Source of the DNA: an uncultured Treponema sp.
GTDB taxonomy: Bacteria > Spirochaetota > Spirochaetia > Treponematales > Treponemataceae
Direction of reading: 5' to 3'
DNA length: 61,837 bases
Assembly (NCBI RefSeq): GCF_945873775.1
Contig: NZ_CAMCEC010000013.1
Span: 1 to 61,837, forward strand
Both the position numbers and the translations under genes were made by a program. Below are positions 42,730 through 56,962 of the stretch, piece by piece. Positions within the stretch are counted from its first letter, which is position 1, and every line of letters starts with the position of its first letter. The notes below the pieces were generated by a model that saw only the letters and a program-made list of their open reading frames with translations, had not been told where the DNA came from and did no database searches.

Positions 42730-42860
42730 TCGATTCCTCCAGTCGCCGGCTTCCATGCCGTCTCCTTACGGACGCCTTCACTCACTTACATCGGCATCCT
42801 TGCCGACTTTTCCTCCCACTTGGTCGGCGTTCGCTTCGGTACTCGGTTCATGTTTTCCAT

Positions 42861-42899
42861 AAAAAAATAAAGACCACACTTCATTTTAAGTGCGGTCTT
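42861..42899 (-). terminator. Terminator of tRNA-Thr
   Basis: Minus strand: 12-pair stem (42899-42888 with 42881-42870, one G-U pair) followed by a T-run. Confidence 0.85.
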
Positions 42900-42906
42900 A
42901 TGCTTT

Positions 42907-42979
42907 AGCCAACTCCCGGACTTGAACCGAGTACCTGCTCGTTACGAGGGAGCTGCTCTACCAGGTGAGCTAAGTTGGC
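42907..42979 (-). tRNA. tRNA-Thr (anticodon CGT)
   Basis: 73 bases, CCA not encoded. Acceptor GCCAACT pairs with AGTTGGC, D-stem GCTC/GAGC, loop CTCGTAA with anticodon CGT preceded by T, variable AGGTA, T-arm CCGG...TTCAAGTCCGG type. The anticodon stem has one C-C apposition next to the loop. It reads ACG (and by wobble rules only that codon). It is followed by its own terminator. Confidence 0.92.
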
Positions 42980-43062
42980 AAGTGAAAGAATGTTAGCAAA
43001 AATGAATAAATCAGTCAACAGAAAATCCGCAGCCCAGTAAAATGAGCCACGGACTTTTTTTA

Positions 43063-44559
43063 TTAGAGAGGAATATTTCCGTGTTTTTTTGCAGGAGCTG
43101 AATTCTGTGTTTTTTGAGCAAGGAATTCAAGGCTGCGCGCAACACGTTGTCTTGTTTCTTCTGGGTTTATGATTTCACTGATGTAATCACGCTGAGCTGC
43201 AATTGTCGGAGTCATAATTGTATCTTTATACTCCTGAGACTTCTGGGCAACAAGGGCAGCCTGAGCAGGATCTTTCATTTCCTTTGCATAAAGAATTCCA
43301 AGTGCACCTTCTGCGCCCATTACTGCGATTTCAGCTTTTGGCCAAGCATAAACAAAGTCCGCGCCAAGATGCTTTGAGCACATTGCAATGTAAGCGCCAC
43401 CGTAAGCCTTGCGTGTAATAACTGTAACTTTTGGAACAGTCGCTTCGCTGTATGCGTAAATTACTTTTGCACCATGGCGGATAATTCCTTTTTGCTCTTC
43501 ATCTGGACCAGGCAAGAATCCCGGAACATCAACAAAAGTAACAAGCGGAACATTATAAGCATCGCAGTAGCGTACAAAACGCGCAATCTTATCAGAAGCA
43601 TCGCAGTTCAAAAGTCCGCCCCAGACAGCCGGATTGTTTGCAACAACGCCAACAGATTTTCCTTCAATCTTTGCAAAGCCGACAACTGCCATCTGAGCAA
43701 ATTCTTTCATAACTTCAAAGAAACTGTCATCGTCAACAACACAGTCAATTACGTTGCGGATGTCATAGCCCTTTTTGCTTTCTTCTGGAAGAGTTTCTGC
43801 AATTTTCTTTGCCTTTTTCTTTTCATCAAACTTGAACTTAGCTTCAGCGACAATTTCCTCGCCGTAATAATGCGGAATATAATCCAAAAGCTTTCTTACA
43901 GCTTCGTAGCATTCCGGCTCTGAAGAAGCTCTAAAATGGGCAACGCCGCTTTTCTGCGCATGAATAGAAGCACCGCCCAAATCTTCCGCGGAAATATCAA
44001 GCGAAAGAACACTTTTTACAACTTTTGGTCCAGTGATAAACATCTGGCTGATTGTGTCAACTGCAAAAATAAAATCAGTAATTCCTGGTGAATAAACAGC
44101 ACCGCCAGCGCAAGGTCCTACAATAATTGAAATCTGCGGAACAGTTCCAGACGCGCGCACATTCTGATAAAAAAGCTCGCCGTAACCGCAAAGAGCATCA
44201 ACGCCTTCCTGAATACGCGCTCCGCCTGAATCATTAAGACCGATAACCGGACACTTTGCCATAATCGCCTTGTCTATGAGCTCCGCAATTTTCTGTCCAT
44301 GAACTTTTCCAAGAGAGCCGCCCTGAACTGTAAAATCCTGAGCATAAATAGCAACTTTTTTTCCGTTGATTTTTCCAAAGCCTGTAATTACGCCGTCATA
44401 AGGAATTTCTTTTTTGTCCATTCCAAAACTTGTGCAAGTATGACGCGCAGCTGAATAAATTTCATAAAATGAATCTTTGTCGCAAAGATTGTTGATTCTT
44501 TCAATAGCGTGAAATTTTCCCTTTGCGTGCTGTTTTTCAATATTATAATTAGAAGCCAT
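43063..44559 (-). CDS. mmdA: Acyl-CoA carboxyltransferase (methylmalonyl-CoA decarboxylase alpha / propionyl-CoA carboxylase beta type)
   Basis: 498 residues from ATG 44559 with GGAGG before it (an in-frame TTG at 44577 would contain that site). Two crotonase-like halves: IYAQDFTVQGGSLGKVHGQKI, GLNDSGGARIQEGV and GPCAGGAVYSPGITDFI in the first; WGGLLNCDASDKIARFVRYCDAYNVPLV and TRKAYGGAYIAMCSK in the second. This is the carboxyltransferase of biotin-dependent enzymes. No biotin carrier or membrane decarboxylase subunits are adjacent, so sodium-pumping decarboxylase versus carboxylase cannot be decided. Confidence 0.85.
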   Translation of the reverse strand: MASNYNIEKQHAKGKFHAIERINNLCDKDSFYEIYSAARHTCTSFGMDKKEIPYDGVITGFGKINGKKVAIYAQDFTVQGGSLGKVHGQKIAELIDKAIMAKCPVIGLNDSGGARIQEGVDALCGYGELFYQNVRASGTVPQISIIVGPCAGGAVYSPGITDFIFAVDTISQMFITGPKVVKSVLSLDISAEDLGGASIHAQKSGVAHFRASSEPECYEAVRKLLDYIPHYYGEEIVAEAKFKFDEKKKAKKIAETLPEESKKGYDIRNVIDCVVDDDSFFEVMKEFAQMAVVGFAKIEGKSVGVVANNPAVWGGLLNCDASDKIARFVRYCDAYNVPLVTFVDVPGFLPGPDEEQKGIIRHGAKVIYAYSEATVPKVTVITRKAYGGAYIAMCSKHLGADFVYAWPKAEIAVMGAEGALGILYAKEMKDPAQAALVAQKSQEYKDTIMTPTIAAQRDYISEIINPEETRQRVARSLEFLAQKTQNSAPAKKHGNIPL

Positions 44560-44690
44560 ATTTCCTCCAAAAAACAAAACGATGCTTTATTTGCAAGCCA
44601 GTTCCAAATAGCAAACTTTTGCAACTGACTTCTTATAATACCGTGAATGTTTTCTAAAGTCAATATGACAAAAAACGTAAAACTGTCATT

Positions 44691-46313
44691 TTATTCAGCG
44701 GCAGGCTTTAAAAACACAAGGCTCTGCTCTTCCACATATTTTTCAGCATCAGTAATTTCTTGGTCGGAAGGAATAAAATCATATTTTTGGCGCAAAACAG
44801 AAGCGCAGGCAAAAACATCACCGCCGCAATTTTCCATTGCAGCAGAATATTCCGTCTTTAGCTCGCTGAATTTTAAAAAGCGGCTTTCAATTTCAGTTTG
44901 AATTCCTGTTATAATCCAGCGGTCTTTTTTAAATTCCAGGGAAACTTTTTCTTTTTGAAGCGAAACACAAAGGCTGTCTTCTCCAAGCGAATCAAAAATA
45001 AAAAATCCAACTTGATATTCCTTTGTTTCTCCGGGGAAAATTTTCTGTCCGTTTTCTTCCGAAATAGCAACTGGATTTTCTTTTCTGCGCTGGCCTTTAA
45101 AAAAAGTTCTGCAAGGATTTCCGTCAACTGTGAAATTTGAAATTCCATAAATATTGTGGCTAAGCTGATTTTTTACGAGCCAGACAGAAGGCGGAACAAG
45201 GTCGTTGCCGGCATTGTACATTGAGCTTGTTTTTCCTGTAACAAAAATATTTGCAAGCCGGTCCACTCTGCCGCCAAGAGATTTTGCGGAGCTTGCCCGC
45301 GCTGAATCAACATCAAGCAAATTTACCGCGCTATAGTACATTTCCACAGTTTGAAGCGAAGTTAGACCTTTTGTTGTCCGCTTTTCCAAAAAAGTCCTGT
45401 AAAGCGAAACCACAGCCGCAATTGCAAAAATAAAAACAGCAGCGCAAATTTTTATCACCGTGGATTTTGCTCTAAGCCATCTTTTCGCACGGATTCTTTT
45501 TTCTTGGCACAAAAGAAATTTTTGGGACTCGGCTTTGAATTTTTCCAAATCTGATGAAGAAGGTTCTTTTAATTCAAGCGCGGAAAATTCTTCCTTTGGA
45601 AATGAACAGTCTTTTCCGGCAAAAGCGTTTTCAGTAAATAAAAGAATTTTTTCGTCAACTCCAAAAACTGCATAGCGCAACGGGCAATAATTTAAATCCC
45701 GAATGTCAGTTTCCCTCGAAGAAGCATTTTTTTCAGCAAACGGAACTTTTCCGCAAATAGCCTTGTAAACAATAACCGCCTGCAAAAAACGAACCGCAGT
45801 TTTCCCAGAAAACACAGGATTCAAATATTTTCCATATAATTCCGAAAAATTTTCCTCTCCAAGCGAAGATAAAGATGCTTCAAGCAAATTCTTTGGCAAA
45901 AATAGAACTTTGGAAAAATCCTTGGAAACAATAATTCCGCCGGCGCCAACTAAAGAAAGAGGCAAATTGCTTTCATCCAAAGCATCAAGCGCATTGCAGA
46001 CAAGCGAACAGGCTTTTATAGACTCTTCTTTCTCCAAGGATTCTAAATATTCACTAAGCACAAATCCATAAAAGCAAGAGCCTTCAAGAAAAACAGTCTC
46101 ATCTTTGTCTTGCGCAAATTCTTTTAAATCCGCAGAAGAAAGTGTGCTTTCAAAACTCCATAAAGAGAAATTCCAAGTTTCGCCATTGAGCTCAGCAAGA
46201 AGTCCGTTTTCCCTGATTTTTCCGGCAAATCCAGCTTTTACAAAAACATTACCAGACATCCGGCTGTCTAAAAAAATTTTTTCGCCTTGAAGAAAAACTG
46301 GGATAGAACTCAT
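44691..46313 (-). CDS. Membrane protein of unknown function, third gene of hflK-hflC
   Basis: 540 residues, not recognised. N-terminal ~290 residues are soluble, one membrane helix lies at about 287-307 (STVIKICAAVFIFAIAAVVS), and the C-terminal ~230 residues are then probably periplasmic. The N-terminal half has a layout loosely like a kinase-fold pseudoenzyme (an alternation of beta then helical parts) but no catalytic motif. Its ATG overlaps the hflC stop as ATGA, so it is translationally coupled and may work with the HflKC complex. Confidence 0.7.
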   Translation of the reverse strand: MSSIPVFLQGEKIFLDSRMSGNVFVKAGFAGKIRENGLLAELNGETWNFSLWSFESTLSSADLKEFAQDKDETVFLEGSCFYGFVLSEYLESLEKEESIKACSLVCNALDALDESNLPLSLVGAGGIIVSKDFSKVLFLPKNLLEASLSSLGEENFSELYGKYLNPVFSGKTAVRFLQAVIVYKAICGKVPFAEKNASSRETDIRDLNYCPLRYAVFGVDEKILLFTENAFAGKDCSFPKEEFSALELKEPSSSDLEKFKAESQKFLLCQEKRIRAKRWLRAKSTVIKICAAVFIFAIAAVVSLYRTFLEKRTTKGLTSLQTVEMYYSAVNLLDVDSARASSAKSLGGRVDRLANIFVTGKTSSMYNAGNDLVPPSVWLVKNQLSHNIYGISNFTVDGNPCRTFFKGQRRKENPVAISEENGQKIFPGETKEYQVGFFIFDSLGEDSLCVSLQKEKVSLEFKKDRWIITGIQTEIESRFLKFSELKTEYSAAMENCGGDVFACASVLRQKYDFIPSDQEITDAEKYVEEQSLVFLKPAAE

Positions 46314-47314
46314 TGACGCTTCCCATCTGAACTATACAAATATTTAAAGTAGTCCATTTTTGTGCTGTAGGTAACATCAAAATTGCCAATTGTATTTTTG
46401 TACGACTCAAGACTTTTCCAGAACTCGTAGAACTTAGGATCACGCGTGTAAGACTGAGTGTAAATTGCCGCGGCTTCCGCATCAGCCTTTCCTTTTGTCT
46501 CCTCGCTTTTTCTGTAGGCTTCTGATTCTATCGTACGCTTTTCGTTTTCAAGCTTTCCAAGCCACTCGGATTTTTTTCCTTCGCCAAGAGAACGGTACGC
46601 CTGGGCCACTTGGTTGCGCTCCTTAATCATTCTGTTGTAAACGCTTTCTGTAAGCTCGTCAGAATATTTTATCTGGCGCGGAACAATGTCAATCAATTCG
46701 ATTCCATATTCGCCAACCATTTTTCTTGCATCGTCAGCCATTTCCTGGCAAAGTGCGCTTCTTCCCTTGGAAACACTTTCGTTGTTTGAATTCACATTCA
46801 CCAAAGCTTCAATTTCCGCACTGTCCTCGCCTTCGATTCCTGCAAGCTGATTTGAATCCGCACTGTCTTTTTCTTCGTTTATAAGATTGCTGCTTCTTAC
46901 AATTTCGCTAAGCCGGTTGCGTGTGATAATTGTCCTAGTTGAAGAATCAATTACATCGCTAAGCTTGTTGTACGCCGCATCCAAAGTCTTGAACGACTGA
47001 TAAAACAACGCAGGATCTGAAATTTTCCAGCGGCTTGTAGTGTCTACAATTATAAACTGATTTTCCTTTGTGGGAATGCGGGCCTGATCACCTTCAAGCG
47101 AAAGAATTTTTGCAGGATAAAAAGTGACGACATCAAGAAACGGAACTTTAAAATAAAGCCCGGTAGAAGTGCAGGATTTTACAATCTGACCGAATCTTGT
47201 AACAACAGCCTGATCGCCTTCGTTCACAATATAGAAAGGACCTGCCGCAAGCAAAATCACAATGACGGCAACAAAAGCCGCAAGTCTAAGATAAAATTTA
47301 TTCTGCTTTGCCAT
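46310..47314 (-). CDS. hflC: HflC, SPFH-family protease modulator
   Basis: 334 residues from ATG 47314, which has GGAGG before it. One N-terminal membrane helix (7-27) then the SPFH/prohibitin domain starting YIVNEGDQAVVTRFGQI, and a long C-terminal coiled coil rich in Glu and Ala (EGKKSEWLGKLENEK, KGKADAEAAAIYTQ). With HflK it forms a large membrane cage that restrains FtsH. hflK ends 17 bases inside it. Confidence 0.92.
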   Translation of the reverse strand: MAKQNKFYLRLAAFVAVIVILLAAGPFYIVNEGDQAVVTRFGQIVKSCTSTGLYFKVPFLDVVTFYPAKILSLEGDQARIPTKENQFIIVDTTSRWKISDPALFYQSFKTLDAAYNKLSDVIDSSTRTIITRNRLSEIVRSSNLINEEKDSADSNQLAGIEGEDSAEIEALVNVNSNNESVSKGRSALCQEMADDARKMVGEYGIELIDIVPRQIKYSDELTESVYNRMIKERNQVAQAYRSLGEGKKSEWLGKLENEKRTIESEAYRKSEETKGKADAEAAAIYTQSYTRDPKFYEFWKSLESYKNTIGNFDVTYSTKMDYFKYLYSSDGKRQ

Positions 47315-48275
47315 TTTTTCCTCCAAGATTTTTAAACGGAAGCACATTGTCAAGACCGCTGTCTATCAAAGCCGGATTCTTTTCTGCGCCGGAAGCAAAA
47401 ATTTCTTCCATAGTTTCAAGGTAAAGACGTTCCCTTGTAACTGCAGGAGCTTTTCTGTATTCCTCATAAACTGAATTGAACCTTGCGACATCGCCTTTTG
47501 CCTTGTTCACACGTTCAGCCGCATAGCCGTCCGCCACTTGAATCTGACGGTCAGCCTCGCCCTTTGCCTTTGGAATTTCTGAATTGTAGCTTTCTTTTCC
47601 TTCATTTATAAAGCGGTTCATGTCCTGAATAGCCTTGTTCACGTCCTCAAACGCATCCTGAACTCCTTCCGGCGGAACAATATTCTGAAGCTTAACCGCA
47701 AATACATTTATTCCAAGCCCAAGCTGCGAAAACTGCTCGTTCATCATGGAAACCGCAAGATTTTCAATGTTGCTTCGCTCGCTGCTCATAACATCCAAAA
47801 TCGCCCGGTCGCCAACCAAAGTATTGATTACAGAACGGCTTATATCGCGGATTGTCTGATCTTTTTCCTGAACCGTAAAAAGCCAGGCACGCGGATCAAC
47901 AATCCTGTACTGAATAATCCATTCAACATCCACGATATTCAAATCGCCGGTCAGCATAGTTGATTCACGCGTAATATTATTCTGATACTGATTTACAGAG
48001 CCGCTTTTTGTGGTTTTAAATCCGAACTGCTCCGTCTGGACAACTTTGTTTCCCGGAACAATAAATTTTTTGTCTATAAACGGAATTTTATACTGAAGCC
48101 CCGGTCCCAAAGTAGCATAATATCTTCCAAACCGAGTGATTACAGCCTGCTCCGCCTGATCAACAACAAAAAGACTAGAGCCTGCCGACGCAAGCAAAAT
48201 AACTCCTGCAATAACTGCCACAACATAAGATGGCTTTTTAAAAAAACTCCTGATTTTTACTTCCAAATCTGACAT
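47298..48275 (-). CDS. hflK: HflK, SPFH-family protease modulator
   Basis: 325 residues. Membrane helix about 18-38, SPFH domain from FVVDQAEQAVITRFGRYYATLGPGLQYKIPF, then coiled coil (AKGEADRQIQVADGYAAERVNKAKGD). The N-terminal Gly/Pro-rich stretch of E. coli HflK is missing. First gene of a three-gene run with hflC and a membrane protein. Confidence 0.92.
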   Translation of the reverse strand: MSDLEVKIRSFFKKPSYVVAVIAGVILLASAGSSLFVVDQAEQAVITRFGRYYATLGPGLQYKIPFIDKKFIVPGNKVVQTEQFGFKTTKSGSVNQYQNNITRESTMLTGDLNIVDVEWIIQYRIVDPRAWLFTVQEKDQTIRDISRSVINTLVGDRAILDVMSSERSNIENLAVSMMNEQFSQLGLGINVFAVKLQNIVPPEGVQDAFEDVNKAIQDMNRFINEGKESYNSEIPKAKGEADRQIQVADGYAAERVNKAKGDVARFNSVYEEYRKAPAVTRERLYLETMEEIFASGAEKNPALIDSGLDNVLPFKNLGGKNGKAE

Positions 48276-48598
48276 AAATATAAATTAATGCAAATCCGCT
48301 TAAAAAACAACGGTATCTATCAGCAAATTTTTTATATTTTCAATGTCTTTTCATTAAATTCCAAATTTTGTGTAAAACATACTTCTGATATTTTGAAATT
48401 CAATTCCCGATTTGACAGCAAAAACAACCCACTGTTTTTTTTCTCCAATAATTCCATCTTTAAACATAGCCTCTTACATATAATTGTTCATTCTTATACC
48501 CTTGCAAAGAAATGCGGAACAGGAAAAACGGCAGTGTTCCATGGCAGAAAAGCCAGCCTTTCTTAGTCCGCGGCTAATGCTATATTCAGTTAAAAATT
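48276..48598. other. Intergenic spacer without recognised gene
   Basis: AT-rich spacer between divergent hflK and the porin-like gene. A 92-codon frame at 48288-48566 has no ribosome binding site and no protein-like character. Two small hairpins (GGAACA..TGTTCC at about 48517-48541 and GGC-agaaaa-GCC next to it) stand out. Confidence 0.5.
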
Positions 48599-48730
48599 AA
48601 CTTAAAATTGTTTTGTTTTTAACTTAAAAATATTTTAAAATTAAGTTGATTTCGTTTTGATTTTAACTTAAAAACATTTTGAAATTAACTTAATTTCGTT
48701 TTCTTTTTAAGTTGATTTCATTATTAAATC
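48599..48730. repeat. Phased array of TTAA(C/G)TT sites upstream of the first barrel gene
   Basis: AACTTAA or its complement TTAAGTT begins at 48599, 48621, 48641, 48665, 48687 and 48707. The steps 22, 20, 24, 22, 20 show a 66-base unit repeated twice, each with three sites about two helical turns apart. The last site lies 24 bases before the -35 box at 48734. Confidence 0.75.
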
Positions 48731-48733
48731 AAA

Positions 48734-48761
48734 TTGATTTTTCCATATCTCTCTATATTCT
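48734..48761 (+). promoter_or_regulatory. Promoter of the first barrel gene
   Basis: TTGATT (48734-48739), 16 bases, TATTCT (48756-48761). The leader of ~45 bases has a small CCTTT/AAAGG hairpin and AAGGAGG before the ATG at 48811. Confidence 0.6.
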
Positions 48762-48783
48762 CCTTTGCTCCGAAAGGCTCCCC

Positions 48784-48900
48784 AAGATTTAAACATAAGG
48801 AGGCTAAGAGATGAAAAAGACTCTTATCGCGGTCGCAGCGGCTGCCGCACTTACAGCAACTTCTGCTTTCGCAGAAATCACATTCGGAGCATGGCTTCGC
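48784..48900. repeat. 117-bp inverted repeat, left arm (5' end of barrel gene 1)
   Basis: Identical, base for base by eye, to the reverse complement of 55141-55257. It covers the end of the leader, the ribosome binding site and the first 30 codons. Confidence 0.9.
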
Positions 48901-50151
48901 AGCATCACAGGCGTAGCGTCTAACGGCGAGGACATTCTTACTGGTACTTCAAACTCTTGGGGCGGAATTAGACCTTCAAGATTGAACGTTGCAGGCACAT
49001 CAGAAGACGGAAACGCTGGATTCAAGCTTGATGTTTACTTCAATGCTACAAAAGCACAGACTGTTAATGCAGACGGAACTTTTGATGAATCAACACAGGT
49101 TCTTGAAGTTGGCGACAACGCATACATTTGGGTAAAACCTGCCAGCTCTGTTCAGCTTGCTCTTGGTAAGTTTGATGGAGGAGAAACAGGACTCCGCGGC
49201 GACCTTTGCTACGGCTCATGGAACTGGCTCAGACCAGGCAACTGGATTGCAGAGGACGAAGGTCTTACTTTCAACGGAAGCCATACAGACGGTCTTATGG
49301 CAAAAATCACTCCTGTTGACGGTCTTGTAGCAGTAATCCAGCTTCCTGTATACAATGGTACTTGGGGCGGATATAACAATGCTTACCAGAAAGAAACTGT
49401 AATAGGCGGAGAAAAAATAGACTCAAAATACACTATTGAAGACACATTCAAGAACGGTATGTATGCGGCTGCTTACTCAATCGAAGGTCTTGGTACTCTT
49501 AAGGCTGGATACTTTGGAAGCTATGCAGAGAAAAACAAGAAAAGCACAAAAAAAGTTATTGTTGTAAAAGATGAAGACAATTATGAAAGTGTAGGAGAAC
49601 TTCTTGAATCAAAGGAAATCTTGGATCCAGCAGCAGATAGCAAGCAGATTGGAACTGTAAACGTTGCATTTGACTTCAACGCAGTTGAGAACCTCTTTGT
49701 AACTGTAGGCGCAAGATTTGGAATTGCTGACAAGGAATACAAGGCTGACAACGAAAAAATTAAGTTCACAGCTGGAGCTTCTTACCAGGTTTCTGACGCT
49801 ATGAAGTTCTCTGTTTCCGGCGGATATGTTCAGTACCAGGACAAATGTGTTGGAAAAGCTAGTGATATGAAAGACAACGCATTCTCTGTAGGTGCTGGCG
49901 TTGACTACGCAATCATGGACGGTCTTAACGCAGCTGCAGACCTCCGCTACAAGAACATTGGATACGGAAAAGATAAGGACGAAGGTGCAATCAGCTTCCT
50001 TGTTGGAGTTACAAAGAACGTATCTAGCAACGGCTACATCGGAGTTGGATTCCAGGGTGCAACAAACGGAAACGGACTTACAGGAATCGGTGCTAATAAG
50101 AACGATGACTTCGTATGGGCAGTTCCTGTAGCATTGAGCGTTTGGTTCTAG
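48811..50151 (+). CDS. Outer-membrane beta-barrel (porin-like) protein, expressed-type copy
   Basis: 446 residues. Signal peptide MKKTLIAVAAAAALTATSAFA, then alternating polar/aromatic strands and a C-terminal SVWF ending in Phe, as in outer-membrane barrels. Blocks shared with the paralogue at 53860-55230: LCYGSWNWLRP, EGLTFNG, VTVGARFGIADK, FTAGASYQVS, GAGVDYAIMDGL and GYGKDKDEGAISFLVGV. Between them the two differ strongly in loop-like stretches. It has a clear promoter behind a phased array. Family name unknown to me; it should be surface-exposed and abundant. Confidence 0.8.
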   Translation: MKKTLIAVAAAAALTATSAFAEITFGAWLRSITGVASNGEDILTGTSNSWGGIRPSRLNVAGTSEDGNAGFKLDVYFNATKAQTVNADGTFDESTQVLEVGDNAYIWVKPASSVQLALGKFDGGETGLRGDLCYGSWNWLRPGNWIAEDEGLTFNGSHTDGLMAKITPVDGLVAVIQLPVYNGTWGGYNNAYQKETVIGGEKIDSKYTIEDTFKNGMYAAAYSIEGLGTLKAGYFGSYAEKNKKSTKKVIVVKDEDNYESVGELLESKEILDPAADSKQIGTVNVAFDFNAVENLFVTVGARFGIADKEYKADNEKIKFTAGASYQVSDAMKFSVSGGYVQYQDKCVGKASDMKDNAFSVGAGVDYAIMDGLNAAADLRYKNIGYGKDKDEGAISFLVGVTKNVSSNGYIGVGFQGATNGNGLTGIGANKNDDFVWAVPVALSVWF

Positions 50152-50235
50152 TCGATAAAACGAAGCTAGCTTCGTTTTACCTCTGACAGTTTTGCTAGCA
50201 AAACTGTCGGGCAACAGCGCATAGTGCGAATGCTG
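50138..50235. repeat. 98-bp inverted repeat, left arm (3' end of barrel gene 1) with two perfect palindromes
   Basis: Matches the reverse complement of 53776-53873 with three differences. Inside are two perfect palindromes, both centred on GCTAGC: 50156-50179 (24 bases, TAAAACGAAGCT and mirror) and 50185-50208 (24 bases, GACAGTTTTGCT and mirror). Confidence 0.9.
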
Positions 50236-50249
50236 AACCAAAGCATAGG

Positions 50250-50272
50250 CCTCCCGGAAGGGAGGTTTTTTT
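50250..50272 (+). terminator. Terminator of the first barrel gene
   Basis: CCTCCC-GGAA-GGGAGG followed by seven T. The paralogue lacks it: the IS1182-type element sits at the matching point. Confidence 0.92.
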
Positions 50273-50434
50273 GTGTTTAAATGGCTAGTTTCCGGCTACG
50301 GAATAGAAAATCTGGACTATAAAAATCTGGCAGAAGATTTAATCGAAAATGAATTATCTGATTTGTTCAATCCCAAAATAAATAGATTGTTTCAGCAACT
50401 ACGGTTTCCTAACAGCAATTTCTTCTGGAATTAG
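50273..50434 (+). CDS. Possible 53-codon ORF, probably a gene remnant
   Basis: A frame from GTG 50273 to TAG 50434 reads WLVSGYGIENLDYKNLAEDL and further acidic, protein-like sequence. It has no ribosome binding site and begins in the terminator T-run. I do not recognise it. It may be the tail of a lost gene. Confidence 0.25.
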   Translation: MFKWLVSGYGIENLDYKNLAEDLIENELSDLFNPKINRLFQQLRFPNSNFFWN

Positions 50435-50554
50435 TCTGTAGAGTTCGTAGAGTCATTTATCCTTTTATTGTTGACAGAAAAAGAAAATTTCCCTATTCTT
50501 ATTGAGAACTTACGACGTAAATGCTGTAAATTCTCAGTGCAGGATAGCTTTCAA

Positions 50555-51829
50555 ATGATAAAGCGGGATTTATATTTAAGAAAATTATTGGATTATATGT
50601 GGGACGGCCAGATAAAGGTAATCACAGGAATCCGCCGGGCTGGAAAATCCACACTTCTTTTCGACCTTTTTTATGACCATCTCCTCAAAAACGGAACTTC
50701 CCAAAACAACGTTATTACATTGCAGCTCGACAAGCGTAAATACGCAAAATACAGAAATCCTATAGTCCTTGCTGATTTTGTGGAAAACACAGTTTCTGCA
50801 GGCAGGGAGAAATTCTATCTTTTTATTGATGAAATCCAGTTCTGCTATTCAGTTCCGGATCCGGACAATGACGGCTTTGAAATCACAGTATACGACATGC
50901 TGAACGAGCTTAAAGATTATAAGAACCTTGACGTTTATGTTACCGGAAGCAATTCAAAAATGCTTTCCAAGGATATTTCTACGGAATTCCGCGGCCGTTC
51001 CTCGCAGATTCATGTTTTTCCATTGAGTTTTGCAGAATATAATGAGGCGGTTGGAGGCGACAAGCGAGACAACTTTGACCGTTATATGATTTACGGCGGA
51101 CTTCCTTATCTTCTGCATTTAAAGACCGAAGAGCAGTTCAAGGACTATCTTTCAAATCTTTTTGACGAGGTCTACATAAAGGATATTGTAGAGCGGAATA
51201 AAATTGAGCGCCCGGATTTGCTGAACGACATTCTGAATTTGCTCAGCACGTTTATCAGCTCTTTGACAAATCCGCTGAATATTACGAACAGCATAAAAAG
51301 CGTAAAGAATGAAAAATTCAGCTCGAACACGGTAAGCGATTATATCGGGTATTGCAAGGATGCTTTTCTTATAAGCGAGGCAAAGCGTTACGATGTGAGA
51401 GGAAAGCATTATTTTGATTACCCGAACAAATATTATTTTACGGATATTGGTCTGCGGAATGCACGGCTGGGATTCAGGCAGATTGATTCCGGGCACATTA
51501 TGGAAAACATAATCTACAACGAACTGCTTACGCGCGGATATTCTGTTGATATTGGAGTTGTTGTTGATAGAAGAAAAGGCGCAAACGCACAAAAAGAAAT
51601 CGATTTTGTCGTGAACAAAGGCGACAGACGGGTGTATATTCAGTCCGCATGGCAGATGGGCACAACTGAAAAAATTGCGGCGGAACTTGATTCTCTAAAA
51701 CTTGCCAAGGACTTTTTTGCAAAGATAATCATACAGAATGACATTCCGTCTCATTTTTCGGATGACGACGGAATAATCCACTGCAATCTGATAGAATTCT
51801 TGCTGCACCCGGAATTGATTCCGTTATGA
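50555..51829 (+). CDS. AAA ATPase with DUF4143 domain
   Basis: 424 residues from ATG 50555 (AGGA before it; the track frame extends upstream to a TTG at 50468 without support). Walker A GIRRAGKSTLLFDL (near residue 23), Walker B YLFIDEIQF (near 92), sensor VYVTGSNSKML, then the DUF4143 half with YYFTDIGLRNARLGF and a C-terminal nuclease-like EIDFVVNKGDRRVYIQ with the E-x-D..Q-x-K-like pattern (here IQSAW). Such proteins are common in variable regions; their job is not established. It lies between the inverted barrel genes. Confidence 0.85.
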   Translation: MIKRDLYLRKLLDYMWDGQIKVITGIRRAGKSTLLFDLFYDHLLKNGTSQNNVITLQLDKRKYAKYRNPIVLADFVENTVSAGREKFYLFIDEIQFCYSVPDPDNDGFEITVYDMLNELKDYKNLDVYVTGSNSKMLSKDISTEFRGRSSQIHVFPLSFAEYNEAVGGDKRDNFDRYMIYGGLPYLLHLKTEEQFKDYLSNLFDEVYIKDIVERNKIERPDLLNDILNLLSTFISSLTNPLNITNSIKSVKNEKFSSNTVSDYIGYCKDAFLISEAKRYDVRGKHYFDYPNKYYFTDIGLRNARLGFRQIDSGHIMENIIYNELLTRGYSVDIGVVVDRRKGANAQKEIDFVVNKGDRRVYIQSAWQMGTTEKIAAELDSLKLAKDFFAKIIIQNDIPSHFSDDDGIIHCNLIEFLLHPELIPL

Positions 51830-51963
51830 AATTGCTTATATTACTTGCTTATGCCGCTCAATAAAATAAATTTCTTCTTTGCTCAAGAAAAGCTATGTTG
51901 TGTTCCTGTGCTTGGATGATTTTTTGGAGCGTAGTCATCCAGTGTATACTTATTGAAAAAAAA

Positions 51964-53730
51964 GGGGCTGTCCTAGAAGTTATTAACAGACTTCAAAAAG
52001 GGCGGCCTTTTTTATGTTAAATGAATTTTGTAGATTTTCGTTTATTGTTTTTTTTCTTAGGTGTTCATTAATCGAATCAGTTGCTTGAAATCATATCCCA
52101 GCATCAGAATCCCCATTCAGTTCCAACTTTTTCTTTTCCCCGAAGATGAAATCGCCTGAAGCCTAAATTGCCTTTTGTCTGTCCAAAGACAGTTTCACAT
52201 TCAGTGGAACGCTTTTTCATGAGAGTTTTATATTCTTCACTGGAAAGAAGATCTTTTACTTTTGCTTTCTGTTCAAGCCAGTGCCCGTTTCTTTGAATCA
52301 CTCTGCCATATTCGGATTTTGTACATAACTCTCTGAAAGGACAGCCTTCGCAGTTTTCACACTGGTAAACTTCGTAAGTCTGTAAATATCCGGATTTATT
52401 TTTCTTAGTCACTGTCTTTCTGTAAGGAACTGGATTTCCGCAGGGGCAGGTATATTCTTTTTGTTCAGCATCGTATTTCCAGTTTTCAGTGTTGAATGTC
52501 TTTTTCCTGAAACTCCTTTTTGTTTCTTTCTCATAAGTTGTGTACTTTACTATTCCTGTGATTTCATTTTTTTCCAGATAATCGTAATTCTCTTCGCTTC
52601 CATAACCTGCATCTGCAATTGCAAACTTAAACTTACATCCAAGACGTTTCTGAACATTTTCAAGATGAGGAATAAATGTTCTTGTGTCCGTAGGATTTGG
52701 GAACACGTCATATCCGATTACAAAATTGTTTTCAGTTCCAACCTGAATATTATAGCCCGGTTTGAGCTGACCATTGAGCATGTGATCTTCTTTCATTCTC
52801 ATGAAAGTTGCGTCTTCGTCTGTCTTTGAATAGCTGTTTCTGTCATTAAAAGTGGCGTTAGCCTTCTCGTATTTCTCTTTTCTCGGAAGATAATCCTTTT
52901 CAATCTGGCGTTTTGCCTTCTTCAGTTTTTTTTTACGTCTTTTGAATCTTCGTCATCAAGGTCATTTATTTCAGCAAGTTTTCTGTTAATCTGCTCGGCA
53001 ACGGCTTTGATTTCTTCACTTGTTACTGGAGTGTCATCGCCCGTTTCTGCAAAGTCCTTGTCACCGTAAATCTGATTTTCTTTCCGTGTAATTTCTTCTA
53101 CGTCTCTTAGGAATACCTTTAGTTTTTCATCCAGTTTCTTCTCGTTTTTCTCTACGGCCTTTCTCCAGACGAAGGTGTATTTGTTTGCGGCGCTTTCAAT
53201 TTTTGTTCCGTCAACGAAATATTTTTCAAGGCTGACATAACCTTTCCTGTTCAGAAGCTTCACTGTCGATACAAATATTTCTTCGATTGAGTCTTTCAGC
53301 TTTTCACTGCGGAATGTGTTGATAGTTCTGAAGTCCGGTTTCTGGAATCCAGTGAGCCACATCACGTTTACATTCTCGCGGCACTGCTTTGCAATCTGTC
53401 TTGAGGAATAGGTGCCTGTCATGTAGCAGTAAATCAATACTTTCAGGAGCATGACAGGATTGTAGCGGCTTGCTCCGCCACCTTTTGTGTTTCGTGCAAA
53501 TACTTCTTCAATTTCGAGTTCATCTACTGTTTTGCTGACAATTCTTACAAAATGATTTTGTGGAACCAGTTCGTCCAGGCTTGGCGGCAGGAGCCACTGC
53601 GCGTGCTGGTTATATGGTTTGTATGTGATTTTATCGCTTACGCCTCTGCTCATATTTAAATTTTAGCAGATTTGAATTCACTTGTAAATTTAAAATAATT
53701 GGGGCTGCCCGTTTCTTTTTGGACAGCCCC
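51964..53730 (-). mobile_element. IS1182-family insertion sequence, degenerate
   Basis: 1767 bases bounded by inverted ends GGGGCTGTCC (51964-51973 and complement 53721-53730). Each end also folds on itself: GGGGCTGCCC..GGACAGCCCC at 53701-53730. No clear target duplication. It carries one transposase frame with two frameshifts. It is inserted at the point where the 3' flank of the second barrel gene would continue into a terminator. Confidence 0.85.
52057..53653 (-). pseudogene. IS1182-family transposase, two frameshifts
   Basis: Read in three pieces the product is ~530 residues: N-terminal part from ATG 53653 to a TGA at 52922 (243 codons, MSRGVSDKITYKPYNQ, first Asp in YFVDGTKIESAANKY), then a shift to the frame ending at 52104 (second Asp in FAIADAGYGSEENYDYL, Cys-rich CENCEGCPFRELC, Glu in STECETVFGQTKGNLGFRRFHLRG), then after EWG a one-base loss hides the expected LMLGYDFKQLIRLMNT tail ending at 52057. 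The first shift is at a run of eight A reading A-AAA-AAC just before the TGA, which could be programmed -1 slippage; the second looks like decay. Confidence 0.88.
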
Positions 53731-53775
53731 CTATGCTTTGGTCAGTACCACCGCTAGCTTGCAAGGCAAACTCGC

Positions 53776-53873
53776 CAGCATTCGCGCTACGCGCTGTTGC
53801 CCGACAGTTTTGCTAGCAAAACTGTCAGAGGTAAAACGAAGCCAGCTTCGTTTTATCGACTAGAACCAAACGC
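53776..53873. repeat. 98-bp inverted repeat, right arm (3' end of barrel gene 2)
   Basis: Reverse complement of 50138-50235 with three base differences. One difference breaks the first palindrome (GCTGGC in place of GCTAGC in gene direction). Confidence 0.9.
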
Positions 53874-55230
53874 TTACAGATACTGGGATTGCCCAAACGA
53901 AGTTGTCGTTGTCGCCGTTGTCATCCTTATCCCATGAATAAGATTTTCCGCCAACGATTCCTGAACCGTCGTTTGTTACAAGACCGCAGTTGTTTGTTGC
54001 GCCCTGGAATCCAATACCGATAGAACCGTTGCTTCCAACAGACTTGTTAACTCCAACGAGGAAGCTGATTGCACCTTCATCTTTGTCTTTTCCGTATCCC
54101 TTCCAGTTTGAAAGTGCCTCAGAATCTGTTGTGTTAACACCTTTTCCGTTGCTCATATAGCGAACATCTGCAGCCAAGCTAAGACCGTCCATGATTGCAT
54201 AGTCTACACCAGCACCAACAAAGAATACATTGTCAACTGCTTCATCATTTCTATATGTGCAGTCATCCTGATACTGGAGGTATCCGCCGTCTACAGAGAA
54301 CTTCATCTGCTCTGAAACCTGGTAAGAAGCACCTGCTGTGAACGCCATCTTGAGGTAGTCAGGTCTGTAATCCTTATCTGCGATACCGAATCTTGCGCCA
54401 ACTGTTACATAGAGGTTTTCAACTGCTGTAAGGTCAAATGCAACACCAATCTGTCCAGTTGTCATTACATCATCATTAGCCGCTACAGCTTTAACTGTAT
54501 TCTGTTTATAAGATGGCGCTTCGCTTTTTGTGTCATCAAAAACCCAGTTTCCATCCTTATCTTCTTTGTTTCCAAGTGCCCATGTTTTTTTTGCAGCAGC
54601 GGCTTTAACTTTCTTCTGTGAGTAATCGCCAATATACTGTGCCTTGAATCTACCCACACCTTCAATTGTGTAGCCAAATCCAGCCTGAATATTCTTGTAT
54701 ACATCTTCAGCTTTTTCATAGCTAGAAGACATAGGAATAACTGCGAATGCGTGGAGTCCTTCGATTGGATCTGCTTCAAGCATCATACCCTTGCGCCAGA
54801 TTCCGTCGAATGTGAGTCCTTCGCCGTCATAAGCCCAGTTGTAAGGTCTGAGCCAGTTCCATGAGCCGTAGCAGAAGTCGCCGCGGAGTCCGTTTGTAGG
54901 AGAGTCGAACTTACCTACAGAGATTTTTACCATGTCAACAGGCTTAACCCAGAGGTAAGCGTCGTCGCCCTGTCCAAGGCCGCTCTCAAAGTCGTTGTAA
55001 ACGCCCATTACGAATCCGGCCTTTCCGTCCTCGGAAGTTCCGTTGATGTTGATTCTGGCTGTACGTGCGCCCCATCCCCATGAGTTCTCAACACCGGCGA
55101 TGATGTCCTCGCCTGTTGAAGCTACTGGAGAAGCAAGAACGCGAAGCCATGCTCCGAATGTGATTTCTGCGAAAGCAGAAGTTGCTGTAAGTGCGGCAGC
55201 CGCTGCGACCGCGATAAGAGTCTTTTTCAT
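53860..55230 (-). CDS. Outer-membrane beta-barrel (porin-like) protein, possibly silent copy
   Basis: 456 residues, paralogue of 48811-50151 in opposite orientation. Same signal peptide and first 30 residues; same C-terminal SVSVWF. The conserved strand blocks alternate with strongly different loops (for example a Lys/Ala-rich KVKAAAAKKTWALG near 210-225 and a Gly/Asp-rich stretch near the end). It has the same ribosome binding site but upstream of 55257 the sequence departs from gene 1: no phased array and no good -10 box, only a REP-like hairpin and an IS110 element. Its terminator is replaced by the IS1182 end. Confidence 0.8.
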   Translation of the reverse strand: MKKTLIAVAAAAALTATSAFAEITFGAWLRVLASPVASTGEDIIAGVENSWGWGARTARININGTSEDGKAGFVMGVYNDFESGLGQGDDAYLWVKPVDMVKISVGKFDSPTNGLRGDFCYGSWNWLRPYNWAYDGEGLTFDGIWRKGMMLEADPIEGLHAFAVIPMSSSYEKAEDVYKNIQAGFGYTIEGVGRFKAQYIGDYSQKKVKAAAAKKTWALGNKEDKDGNWVFDDTKSEAPSYKQNTVKAVAANDDVMTTGQIGVAFDLTAVENLYVTVGARFGIADKDYRPDYLKMAFTAGASYQVSEQMKFSVDGGYLQYQDDCTYRNDEAVDNVFFVGAGVDYAIMDGLSLAADVRYMSNGKGVNTTDSEALSNWKGYGKDKDEGAISFLVGVNKSVGSNGSIGIGFQGATNNCGLVTNDGSGIVGGKSYSWDKDDNGDNDNFVWAIPVSVSVWF

Positions 55231-55257
55231 CTCTTAGCCTCCTTATGTTTAAATCTT
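55141..55257. repeat. 117-bp inverted repeat, right arm (5' end of barrel gene 2)
   Basis: Identical to the reverse complement of 48784-48900. With the 3' arms it makes a nested inverted structure of about 6.5 kb. Confidence 0.9.
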
Positions 55258-55439: not shown

Positions 55440-55582
55440 CTGTTTGAACTGGATTATCCAGGAAGAATCCTAATCGCCTCCTTGGGACTTGAGCCCGCAC
55501 ATAAGAATAGGACTTTGGCTCGGCTATTTTCGGGCAGGATAGTCCCGTTTCAAACTTCAATCTTTAAACTCAAGGGGCAAAT
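55440..55582 (+). ncRNA. Candidate IS110 bridge RNA
   Basis: Upstream promoter TTGTTT (55406-55411), 16 bases, TATATT (55428-55433) points to a start near 55440. The RNA then folds as nested stems: 55442-55448 with 55549-55555 (GTTTGAA), hairpin 55449-55453/55457-55461 (CTGGA), 55484-55489 with 55541-55546 (GGGACT), 55518-55522 with 55531-55535 (GCTCG). A structured RNA in the left non-coding end, just before the recombinase gene, is where IS110-group elements encode the bridge RNA that pairs with target and donor DNA. Confidence 0.65.
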
Positions 55583-56824
55583 ATGTACATAGTTGGAATC
55601 GATATAGCAAAAAAATCACATCAGGCGGCAATAATGAAGCCGGACGGAACTCTTGTGGGCAGATCTTTCAGATTTACAAATACAAAGCAAGGTTTCGAGT
55701 TTCTTATGGATAAGCTTTCGGCAGTAGATTCCAGCCTTGAAAATTTTGAATTCGGAATGGAAGCCACGGGACATTACTGGCTCAACTTGTACACTTGGCT
55801 TGCAGACAAACACGCAATTGTTCACGTAATAAATCCGCTCCAGTCAGACGCTCTTCGGAATCTCTACATCAGAAAAACAAAAACAGACTCCGTGGATGCA
55901 AAAATAATCGCGCAGGTAATCAGAATCGGGCAGTATTCAGAAACAAAACTTGCGGACGACCGTATGCTCATGATGCGCGACTTGTGCCGGCAGAGATTTT
56001 TTCTTGTGGATATGGTTGCGAACTTAAAGCGAAAAATAATTGTGATGATGGACAGAATTTTCCCGGAATACCAAGGCTTTTTTTCAGATACATTCGGAAA
56101 ATCTTCCACTGCAATTCTCAAGCACTGCACAACTCCAGAAGAAATAACTTTGTTCGGGGAAGACAATCTTGCGCAGCTTCTTCAGGTGGCCTCCAACGGA
56201 AAATTTGGACTAAAAAAAGCCCAAGAACTTATAAGCCTTGCCCGTAACTCTTTTGCCGCCCGCCTTTCTTCAAAAACACTTTCGCTTCTTGTAAAGCAGA
56301 TGATGGAGCAAATGGAGCTTCTTGAAAATCAGATTGAAATCCTTGAAAAGCACATATCGTCGCATTTTAAGTCGTTCGGAACAAAGATTACGCAGATTCC
56401 GGGAATTGGGCCAGTGCTTGGAGCTTCTATTTTAAGTGAAATTGGCGACATAAGCCGTTTTGCCAATCCTAAAAAATTGTGTGCTTATGCCGGAATAGAT
56501 CCTTCGGTAAAGCAGTCCGGGCAGTTTTTGGGGAACGAAAACCACATGTCCAAGCGCGGTTCTGGCTACCTTAGAAGATGCCTTTGGATGGCTTCATTTG
56601 TTTCCGTAAACCACTGCCGTGAAATAACGATTGTTTACAAGTCGCAAGTTTCAAAAGGAAAAACGCATTTTCAGTCAATGGGCTTTGTCTGCCACAAGCT
56701 CCTCAACATAATCTACACAGTCTTAAAAAATGACATAGACTACAGCCCAATGCTCTGCATAAATCCAGCTATAACAGCAAGAACTTCTCGCCGCATAGCA
56801 AGAGCCGCCCTAAAAGCTCGATAA
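55583..56824 (+). CDS. IS110-family recombinase (transposase)
   Basis: 413 residues, intact. N-terminal RuvC-like DEDD domain: GIDIAKKSHQ (Asp near 6), GMEATGHYW (Glu near 60), DSVDAKIIAQ (Asp near 102 and 105). A coiled coil spans ~140-255, then the Tnp-IS116/IS110/IS902 domain with IPGIGPVLGASILSEIGDISRF, CAYAGIDPSVKQSG and SKRGSGYLRRCLWMAS carrying the presumed catalytic Ser. It lies downstream of the long structured left end, the IS110 (not IS1111) layout. AAGGGGC precedes the ATG. Element borders cannot be fixed by eye; it is flanked by REP-like hairpins on both sides. Confidence 0.92.
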   Translation: MYIVGIDIAKKSHQAAIMKPDGTLVGRSFRFTNTKQGFEFLMDKLSAVDSSLENFEFGMEATGHYWLNLYTWLADKHAIVHVINPLQSDALRNLYIRKTKTDSVDAKIIAQVIRIGQYSETKLADDRMLMMRDLCRQRFFLVDMVANLKRKIIVMMDRIFPEYQGFFSDTFGKSSTAILKHCTTPEEITLFGEDNLAQLLQVASNGKFGLKKAQELISLARNSFAARLSSKTLSLLVKQMMEQMELLENQIEILEKHISSHFKSFGTKITQIPGIGPVLGASILSEIGDISRFANPKKLCAYAGIDPSVKQSGQFLGNENHMSKRGSGYLRRCLWMASFVSVNHCREITIVYKSQVSKGKTHFQSMGFVCHKLLNIIYTVLKNDIDYSPMLCINPAITARTSRRIARAALKAR

Positions 56825-56849: not shown

Positions 56850-56877
56850 GATTGCCGTGTCAAGCACGGCAATGACA
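56850..56877. repeat. REP-like hairpin, single copy
   Basis: Stem TTGCCGTG / CACGGCAA around TCAAG, ending AATGACA, 25 bases after the IS110 recombinase stop. Confidence 0.75.
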
Positions 56878-56962
56878 GTTGTTTATAAAAGAAATAATTA
56901 AAACACGAAAACAGGTACTTAATGCGGCAGCCCTAAGCGGTGCTGGGAAAGACAGGAGGTTT

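Follow-up and report, generated by a model that had tools for sequence, protein, structure and literature searches.

In the sap S-layer system of Campylobacter fetus and the vsa system of Mycoplasma pulmonis, one promoter site serves several genes that have an identical 5′ region, and the gene bodies are exchanged by inversion; the machinery is RecA-dependent or a tyrosine recombinase, and no guide RNA is known to take part. In tprK of Treponema pallidum and vlsE of Borrelia, internal segments are copied from partial silent cassettes into one gene. In 2024 the bridge RNAs of IS110 insertion sequences (IS) were reported as components of mobile elements, and inversion was demonstrated by means of engineered guides. 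Here we describe a porin gene family in an uncultured, gut-type Treponema sp., two members of which lie in inverted orientation beside a gene for an IS110-family recombinase, in a stretch of 61,837 nucleotides (nt) called the window below (contig C13 of a 2.59-Mb genome, G000). We propose, with a probability of about 0.6, that these porins are switched by exchange at a shared leader, most likely catalysed by the adjacent domesticated RNA-guided recombinase. The more specific proposal, that the locus encodes a natural RNA-guided DNA invertase whose single-loop bridge RNA would read the ribosome-binding site (RBS) common to the porin family and so shuffle genes through one expression site, has in our view a little better than an even chance.

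The Treponema locus would follow the same one-promoter inversion logic as sap and vsa, with different proteins and different recombination machinery. Like tprK and vlsE it would concern surface-protein variation in a spirochaete, and the first-pass annotation of the window invoked these two systems; the likeness is poor, as the Treponema cassettes are complete open reading frames (ORFs) with their own leaders and signal peptides, apparently exchanged whole at the 5′ end. Segmental conversion of the tprK/vlsE type was rejected as the main model on this ground.

The invertase Piv is related to IS110 and requires its SG residues, the proteins of the Piv/IS492/IS621 branch are 315–330 amino acids (aa) long, and the accessible part of that account mentions no guide RNA for Piv (PMC11187229). 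Type IV pilin inversion by Moraxella Piv resembles the Treponema system in that an IS110-related DEDD recombinase adjoins surface-protein genes and inversion swaps, or in Treponema probably swaps, coding bodies; the Treponema recombinase adjoins porin genes, and an inversion between related genomes can be deduced. The Treponema proteins beside porin leaders are longer (393–422 aa), a distinction made by length and not from a tree that includes Piv; they are accompanied by a guide-RNA candidate, and the partner sites are leaders around several genes. With the IS621/IS110 bridge-RNA elements (PMC11208160, PMC11208158) the system shares recombinase domains, catalytic residues, target-loop layout, CT core and guide rules. 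It differs from them in that the recombinase gene is single-copy and has no recognisable ends, a plain hairpin stands in place of the donor loop, and the guide is apparently aimed at a host gene family.

Exchange of porin bodies at a shared leader

The porin pair of the window consists of the following parts.

48784–48900, + strand: shared leader of gene 1 (5′ untranslated region, RBS, signal peptide), site U1; 117/117 identical to 55141–55257, and 99% identical over 110 nt to the copy on contig C11
48811–50151, + strand: porin gene 1, 446 aa, putative silent cassette; Pfam hits Porin_2/OMP_b-brl; porin-like AlphaFold model; consensus promoter not found upstream
50138–50235, + strand: 3′ arm of gene 1, 95/98 identical to the gene 2 arm and followed by a terminator at 50247–50268
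53776–53873, − strand: 3′ arm of gene 2, matching that of gene 1 at 95/98 in the best alignment of 98 bases; terminator replaced by IS1182
53860–55230, − strand: porin gene 2, 456 aa, putative silent cassette; Pfam Porin_2; no consensus promoter upstream
55141–55257, − strand: shared leader of gene 2, site U2; 117/117 identical to 48784–48900

The inverted arms, the divergent interiors and the barrel nature of both products, all noted in the first-pass annotation, were confirmed. The 117-base inverted identity of the leaders is not due to chance, because the longest exact inverted repeat across bases 1–47000 of the window is only 29 nt. Past residue 36, the two proteins are 57% identical. Both genes encode porin-like barrels: Pfam matches both, and the AlphaFold model, made for gene 1 alone (mean pLDDT 69), resembles solved general porins. 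The named organisms that match the porin gene are Treponema.

A third porin gene with the same leader is present on contig C11 (L035:5000–6229); lying off the window, it had not been mentioned before, and neither had the IS110-type recombinase with its possible guide RNA upstream of gene 2. Among 274 genomes of the family (one genome per species), the leader motif matched in 8 and the control in none. Every match inspected starts a porin gene of the same family or runs into a contig end, and all complete copies are full ORFs with a start codon and a signal peptide. Within a genome, the leaders show no or almost no differences along roughly 75–90 nt of coding sequence, the bodies being 43–82% identical; between species the leaders differ at 9–34 of 78 nt, with the exception of the G000/G273 pair (1 of 78). 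Judged from these sequences the leader undergoes concerted evolution, because it is identical within genomes yet different between species. A 34-nt leader core (AAGGAGGCTAAGAGATGAAAAAGACTCTTATCGC) is conserved across the species of the group. In the relatives inspected first (G001 and others), the syntenic loci contain neither leader nor recombinase, and searches of viral contigs for the two, and of plasmids, gave no match. Draft assemblies repeatedly break inside the porin leader (G026, contigs C16, C69 and C152; G188, C4, C7, C8, C10 and C18; G230, C69; contig ends in G064 and G065), so that too few porin copies are counted and some arrangements may be mixtures.

In each of 8 genomes, exactly one leader copy has a TTGACT-17-TAGAAT-like promoter in front of it, along with a GATATCGTATGGTATC-like palindrome directly upstream of the RBS. 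Both are also present in G030, which has a single partial copy; the promoter of G064 and the palindrome of G204 are looser matches. In G000 they precede the C11 copy and are absent from both window genes. The C11 copy thus has the features of an expression site with a conserved sigma70 promoter and a palindromic operator, and the window genes are read as silent cassettes because this promoter/operator is missing there. One promoter site, promoterless copies and a common 5′ region, the arrangement known from sap and vsa, are all present at the sequence level. The earlier annotation had given gene 1 both a promoter and a terminator, of which the terminator was found but no consensus promoter, and gene 1 was accordingly discarded as the promoter-bearing copy; its statement that gene 2 has no clear promoter agrees with our analysis. 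Just upstream of the promoter-bearing porin site lies a PD-(D/E)XK gene (PDDEXK_2, Rpn-like; L035:3837–4826), and such a gene likewise adjoins the expression sites of G273 and G031.

The close relative G273, whose backbone is mostly 92–96% identical to that of G000 at the nucleotide level, has four leader copies. The two layouts are:

G000: HflC-U1>body1 ATPase body2<U2-IS110
G273: HflC-U1>body2 body4<U3 ... IS110-U2>body5 ATPase body1<U4

Upstream flanks are 92–100% conserved overall as far as the shared leader. The HflC-side flank of G273 is 95.9% identical to window positions 42817–48899, the match stopping at the end of the shared leader, and the body behind it is closest to gene 2 (81%, an assignment barely better than that to its paralogues). 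Compared per 100 nt, the U1 flanks of the two genomes are 98–100% identical up to the ATG, after which the bodies are 31–78% identical. Body 1 of G000 sits behind a different flank, U4, in G273 (82% aa identity; next best 60%). At the expression site, the flank is 92–96% conserved and the bodies behind it are unrelated (45% aa identity). The difference between the two layouts can be explained by an inversion that runs from leader to leader (U1 x U4) and spans about 33 kb, together with further exchanges and the loss of one copy. Exchange of bodies at the shared leader is well supported by this comparison between species. Of the former suggestion that inversion swaps the bodies behind one promoter, the exchange at identical 5′ ends is supported, since flanks are conserved, bodies swapped and the change-over falls in the leader; the placing of that promoter at gene 1 is not, as it lies at C11.

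The recombinase and its candidate guide RNA

Upstream of gene 2, and within the two leaders, the following features were recognised.

55442–55555, + strand: bridge-RNA-like non-coding RNA (ncRNA) with one guide loop; left target guide (LTG) 55474–55482 (TCGCCTCCT), right target guide (RTG) 55498–55505 (CACATAAG); fold z −2.6; the same layout recurs in most relatives; guides agree with the leaders next to them
55583–56824, + strand: IS110-family recombinase, probably domesticated, 413 aa; PF01548 and PF02371; DEDD and Ser-Gly conserved relative to IS621
48792–48806, − strand: predicted recombination site at U1, reading TAGCCTC-CT-TATGTT and agreeing with the target derived from the guides at 13/15 bases
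55235–55249, + strand: predicted recombination site at U2, with the CT of the core at 55242–55243; agrees with the target derived from the guides at 13/15 bases

The recombinase scored above the cut-off for PF01548, PF02371 and NF033542, and residues D7, E60, D102, D105, S312 and G313 are conserved in 14 sequences aligned with IS621; by these signatures it has the DEDD RuvC-like domain and the Tnp domain with catalytic Ser-Gly of an IS110-family protein. Homologues were found in 14 of the 274 genomes, one copy in each. Ten of them form a clade (support 100/99), and all 10 genes lie divergently beside a porin leader, in three neighbourhoods (DUF2804, chemotaxis genes, or PtsI/Der-like genes). 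The co-occurrence of leader and recombinase gives a Fisher p of 1e-9, a value that ignores kinship between the genomes. The remaining four homologues are IS-like: they have differing neighbourhoods, recognisable ends and two-loop ncRNAs, they are not beside a porin leader, and two of them are almost identical in different species. These are single-copy too, and copy number alone does not separate the groups. The CGTATA / AGCAGGTCT element ends present in the four IS relatives were not seen around the leader-clade genes, which also show none of the other marks of an IS110 mobile element (insertion flanks at such ends, a two-loop bridge RNA, a variable position, often in several copies). Between G000 and G273 the recombinase has a nonsynonymous divergence (dN) of 0.009 and a synonymous divergence (dS) of 0.42 (dN/dS about 0.02). 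From its sequence and position, it looks like a domesticated host gene.

The ncRNA is predicted to fold into an outer stem and one target-type loop that encloses a GGG..CCC hairpin; the place of the donor loop of the IS relatives is taken by a plain hairpin. Fold z scores range from −1.9 to −4.0 in seven species, the minimum-energy loop fold departing from this layout in G026 and G031; an Rfam search gave no match. According to the bridge-RNA rule, the LTG reads the left target with the core, and the RTG is the reverse complement of the core and right target (PMC11208160; PMC11208158). In G000 the guides predict TCGCCTC-CT-TATGTG, and the leader reads TAGCCTC-CT-TATGTT, a 13/15 match that is the joint top match for the guide-derived target in 156,678 positions. 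The adjacent or another leader copy was the best non-self match in 8 of 10 genomes, in the DNA examined for each, and in G188 six leaders matched at 14/15. When G-U pairs are allowed, 13–14 of 15 positions pair in 6/8 species. The RTG fits the leader of its own species better than those of other species (p = 0.0145, species shuffling), and shuffled RTGs never reached the observed total match in 5000 trials. Alternative guide joinings match less well overall, plain LTG+RTG tying in G202 and G204. Thus the guides agree with the putative site of recombination on both sides of a common core, less closely in G064 and G065. In the IS relatives, the same reading gave partial matches to the insertion flanks (G256, 8/9; G138, 6/9 and 4/4), which supports the guide rule in the clade. 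Antisense regulation by the ncRNA was rejected: the LTG could pair with the RBS of the porin mRNA, but the RTG has the sense of that mRNA, and its one possible partner is the other strand of the DNA, which is what the geometry of bridge RNAs demands. What the sequences show directly are the common leaders, a single promoter-bearing site in each genome, bodies swapped at leaders between close relatives, the position and constraint of the recombinase gene and the match of guide to leader. RNA guidance of the recombinase is a strong inference from this match, and catalysis, the expressed and silent states and the biological role of switching are inferred as well.

In the proposed mechanism, several full-length porin genes would have a common leader and divergent bodies, one gene occupying the expression site and the others serving as silent cassettes. 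Recombinase dimers carrying the same single-loop RNA would bind two leader RBS sites, the guide loop reading the leader RBS segment (top strand GCCTC-CT-TATGT); one loop could serve both partner sites because these are identical. Strands would be exchanged at the CT core, with the predicted crossover just upstream of the start codon, and mainly inversion between oppositely oriented copies would place a silent gene behind the expression-site promoter. A transposition machinery would in this way have become a host surface-variation switch by loss of the donor loop, both partners being read by the same loop.

Alternative explanations and significance

Several observations weigh against a guided recombinase as the sole agent, and most of them bear on its main rival, in which the same porin switching results from RecA-dependent homologous recombination and gene conversion between leaders, the recombinase being incidental or otherwise employed. 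The 117-bp leader repeats of G000 are long enough for RecA recombination, and in G273 the stretch common to U1 and U4 measures about 400 bp, so the inversion could equally have arisen in that way. Homogenisation extends to the signal peptides, which lie on the 3′ side of the predicted crossover; a site-specific exchange at the RBS leaves this unexplained, and because of it RecA-type exchange or conversion probably acts too. Relatives devoid of this recombinase, including related porin clusters, also share conserved leader cores. What RecA alone leaves unexplained is the single-copy, strongly constrained recombinase gene beside the leader in 10/10 clade genomes and three neighbourhoods, and the fit of the guide loop to the leader RBS; we consider this rival unlikely, while giving it real weight. 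The guide evidence itself has weak points: the matches in G064 and G065 are 11/15 and tied with other places, position 2 of the G000 LTG is a mismatch, and the LTGs of the IS relatives also end in CTCCT or ACCT, so that part of the match reflects scaffold or ancestral RBS targeting. Furthermore, the genomes compared are draft assemblies that break at the leaders.

Such ancestral targeting is the basis of another explanation, in which recombinase and ncRNA are the remains of an IS110 element once inserted beside a porin gene and the guide match is the footprint of an old target choice. The IS relatives do sit at RBS-like sequences with matching left guides, so that ribosome-binding sites were probably what the ancestral element targeted. 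The leader beside the recombinase is nevertheless unsplit, with both target halves contiguous and no insertion flank; the low dN/dS and the intact active site are not those expected of a remnant, and the guides covary with the leader, their pairing being kept in three genomic neighbourhoods. This makes a remnant very improbable. It is also improbable, if slightly less so, that no switching takes place and that leader identity reflects selection for strong translation or secretion in ordinary paralogues occasionally rearranged over evolution. Conservation of the 34-nt core across the group, and of the leader core in recombinase-less relatives, would be expected in that case. However, leaders that are identical within genomes and different between all but the closest species pair point to concerted evolution and not to shared constraint, the discordance between flanks and bodies falls at the leader at several sites, and the promoter is found at just one site per genome.

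Guided switching at the leader, if true, would be a natural chromosomal case of a bridge-RNA guide directed at a family of host genes, in an element that has lost its donor loop and its ends, and the first such case known to us. No report of a natural RNA-guided invertase was found in the literature searched, a search that did not extend to preprints or most subscription journals. It would also provide commensal-type Treponema with a surface-porin switching mechanism distinct from tprK, and would raise, in a testable form, the question of whether Piv-type invertases have guide RNAs. Leader switching may further explain why breaks in the assemblies of these genomes fall at the leaders of porin genes.

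Other features of the window and of related clusters

An AAA_14/DUF4143 ATPase gene and an IS1182 copy separate the two window porin genes. IS1182 occupies 51966–53735, its transposase is split into two ORFs, and its insertion removed the gene 2 terminator hairpin, leaving the T-run; replacement of this terminator by an IS, noticed earlier, is borne out by G273, which has kept a clean terminator at the corresponding place. IS1182 was dismissed as the switching agent and is incidental, being absent from that place in G273 and having a split transposase. The ATPase stretch (50237–51963) is 99.5% identical to G273, compared with 92–96% for most of the surrounding backbone, and has perhaps been exchanged recently. 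Upstream of gene 1, an AT-rich array (48587–48740) consists of TTAACTTAA-like repeats spaced 22 bp; the final 300 bp ahead of the gene, array included, are 100% identical to the sequence that precedes body 1 at U4 in G273. A short interspersed hairpin repeat around TGCCGTGTCAAGCACGGCAATGACAG is present at 56850–56885 and at many places in the genome, dispersed over many contigs.

G004 and G023, which do not have this recombinase, carry clusters in which porin genes of another subfamily lie in both orientations and have an RBS/leader core in common (L040:3747–17832; L041:1703–4826; L042:502–6646). In these clusters one upstream region that resembles a promoter is conserved and a serine resolvase/invertase gene (PF00239) is present; they are perhaps a parallel switch that uses another recombinase.
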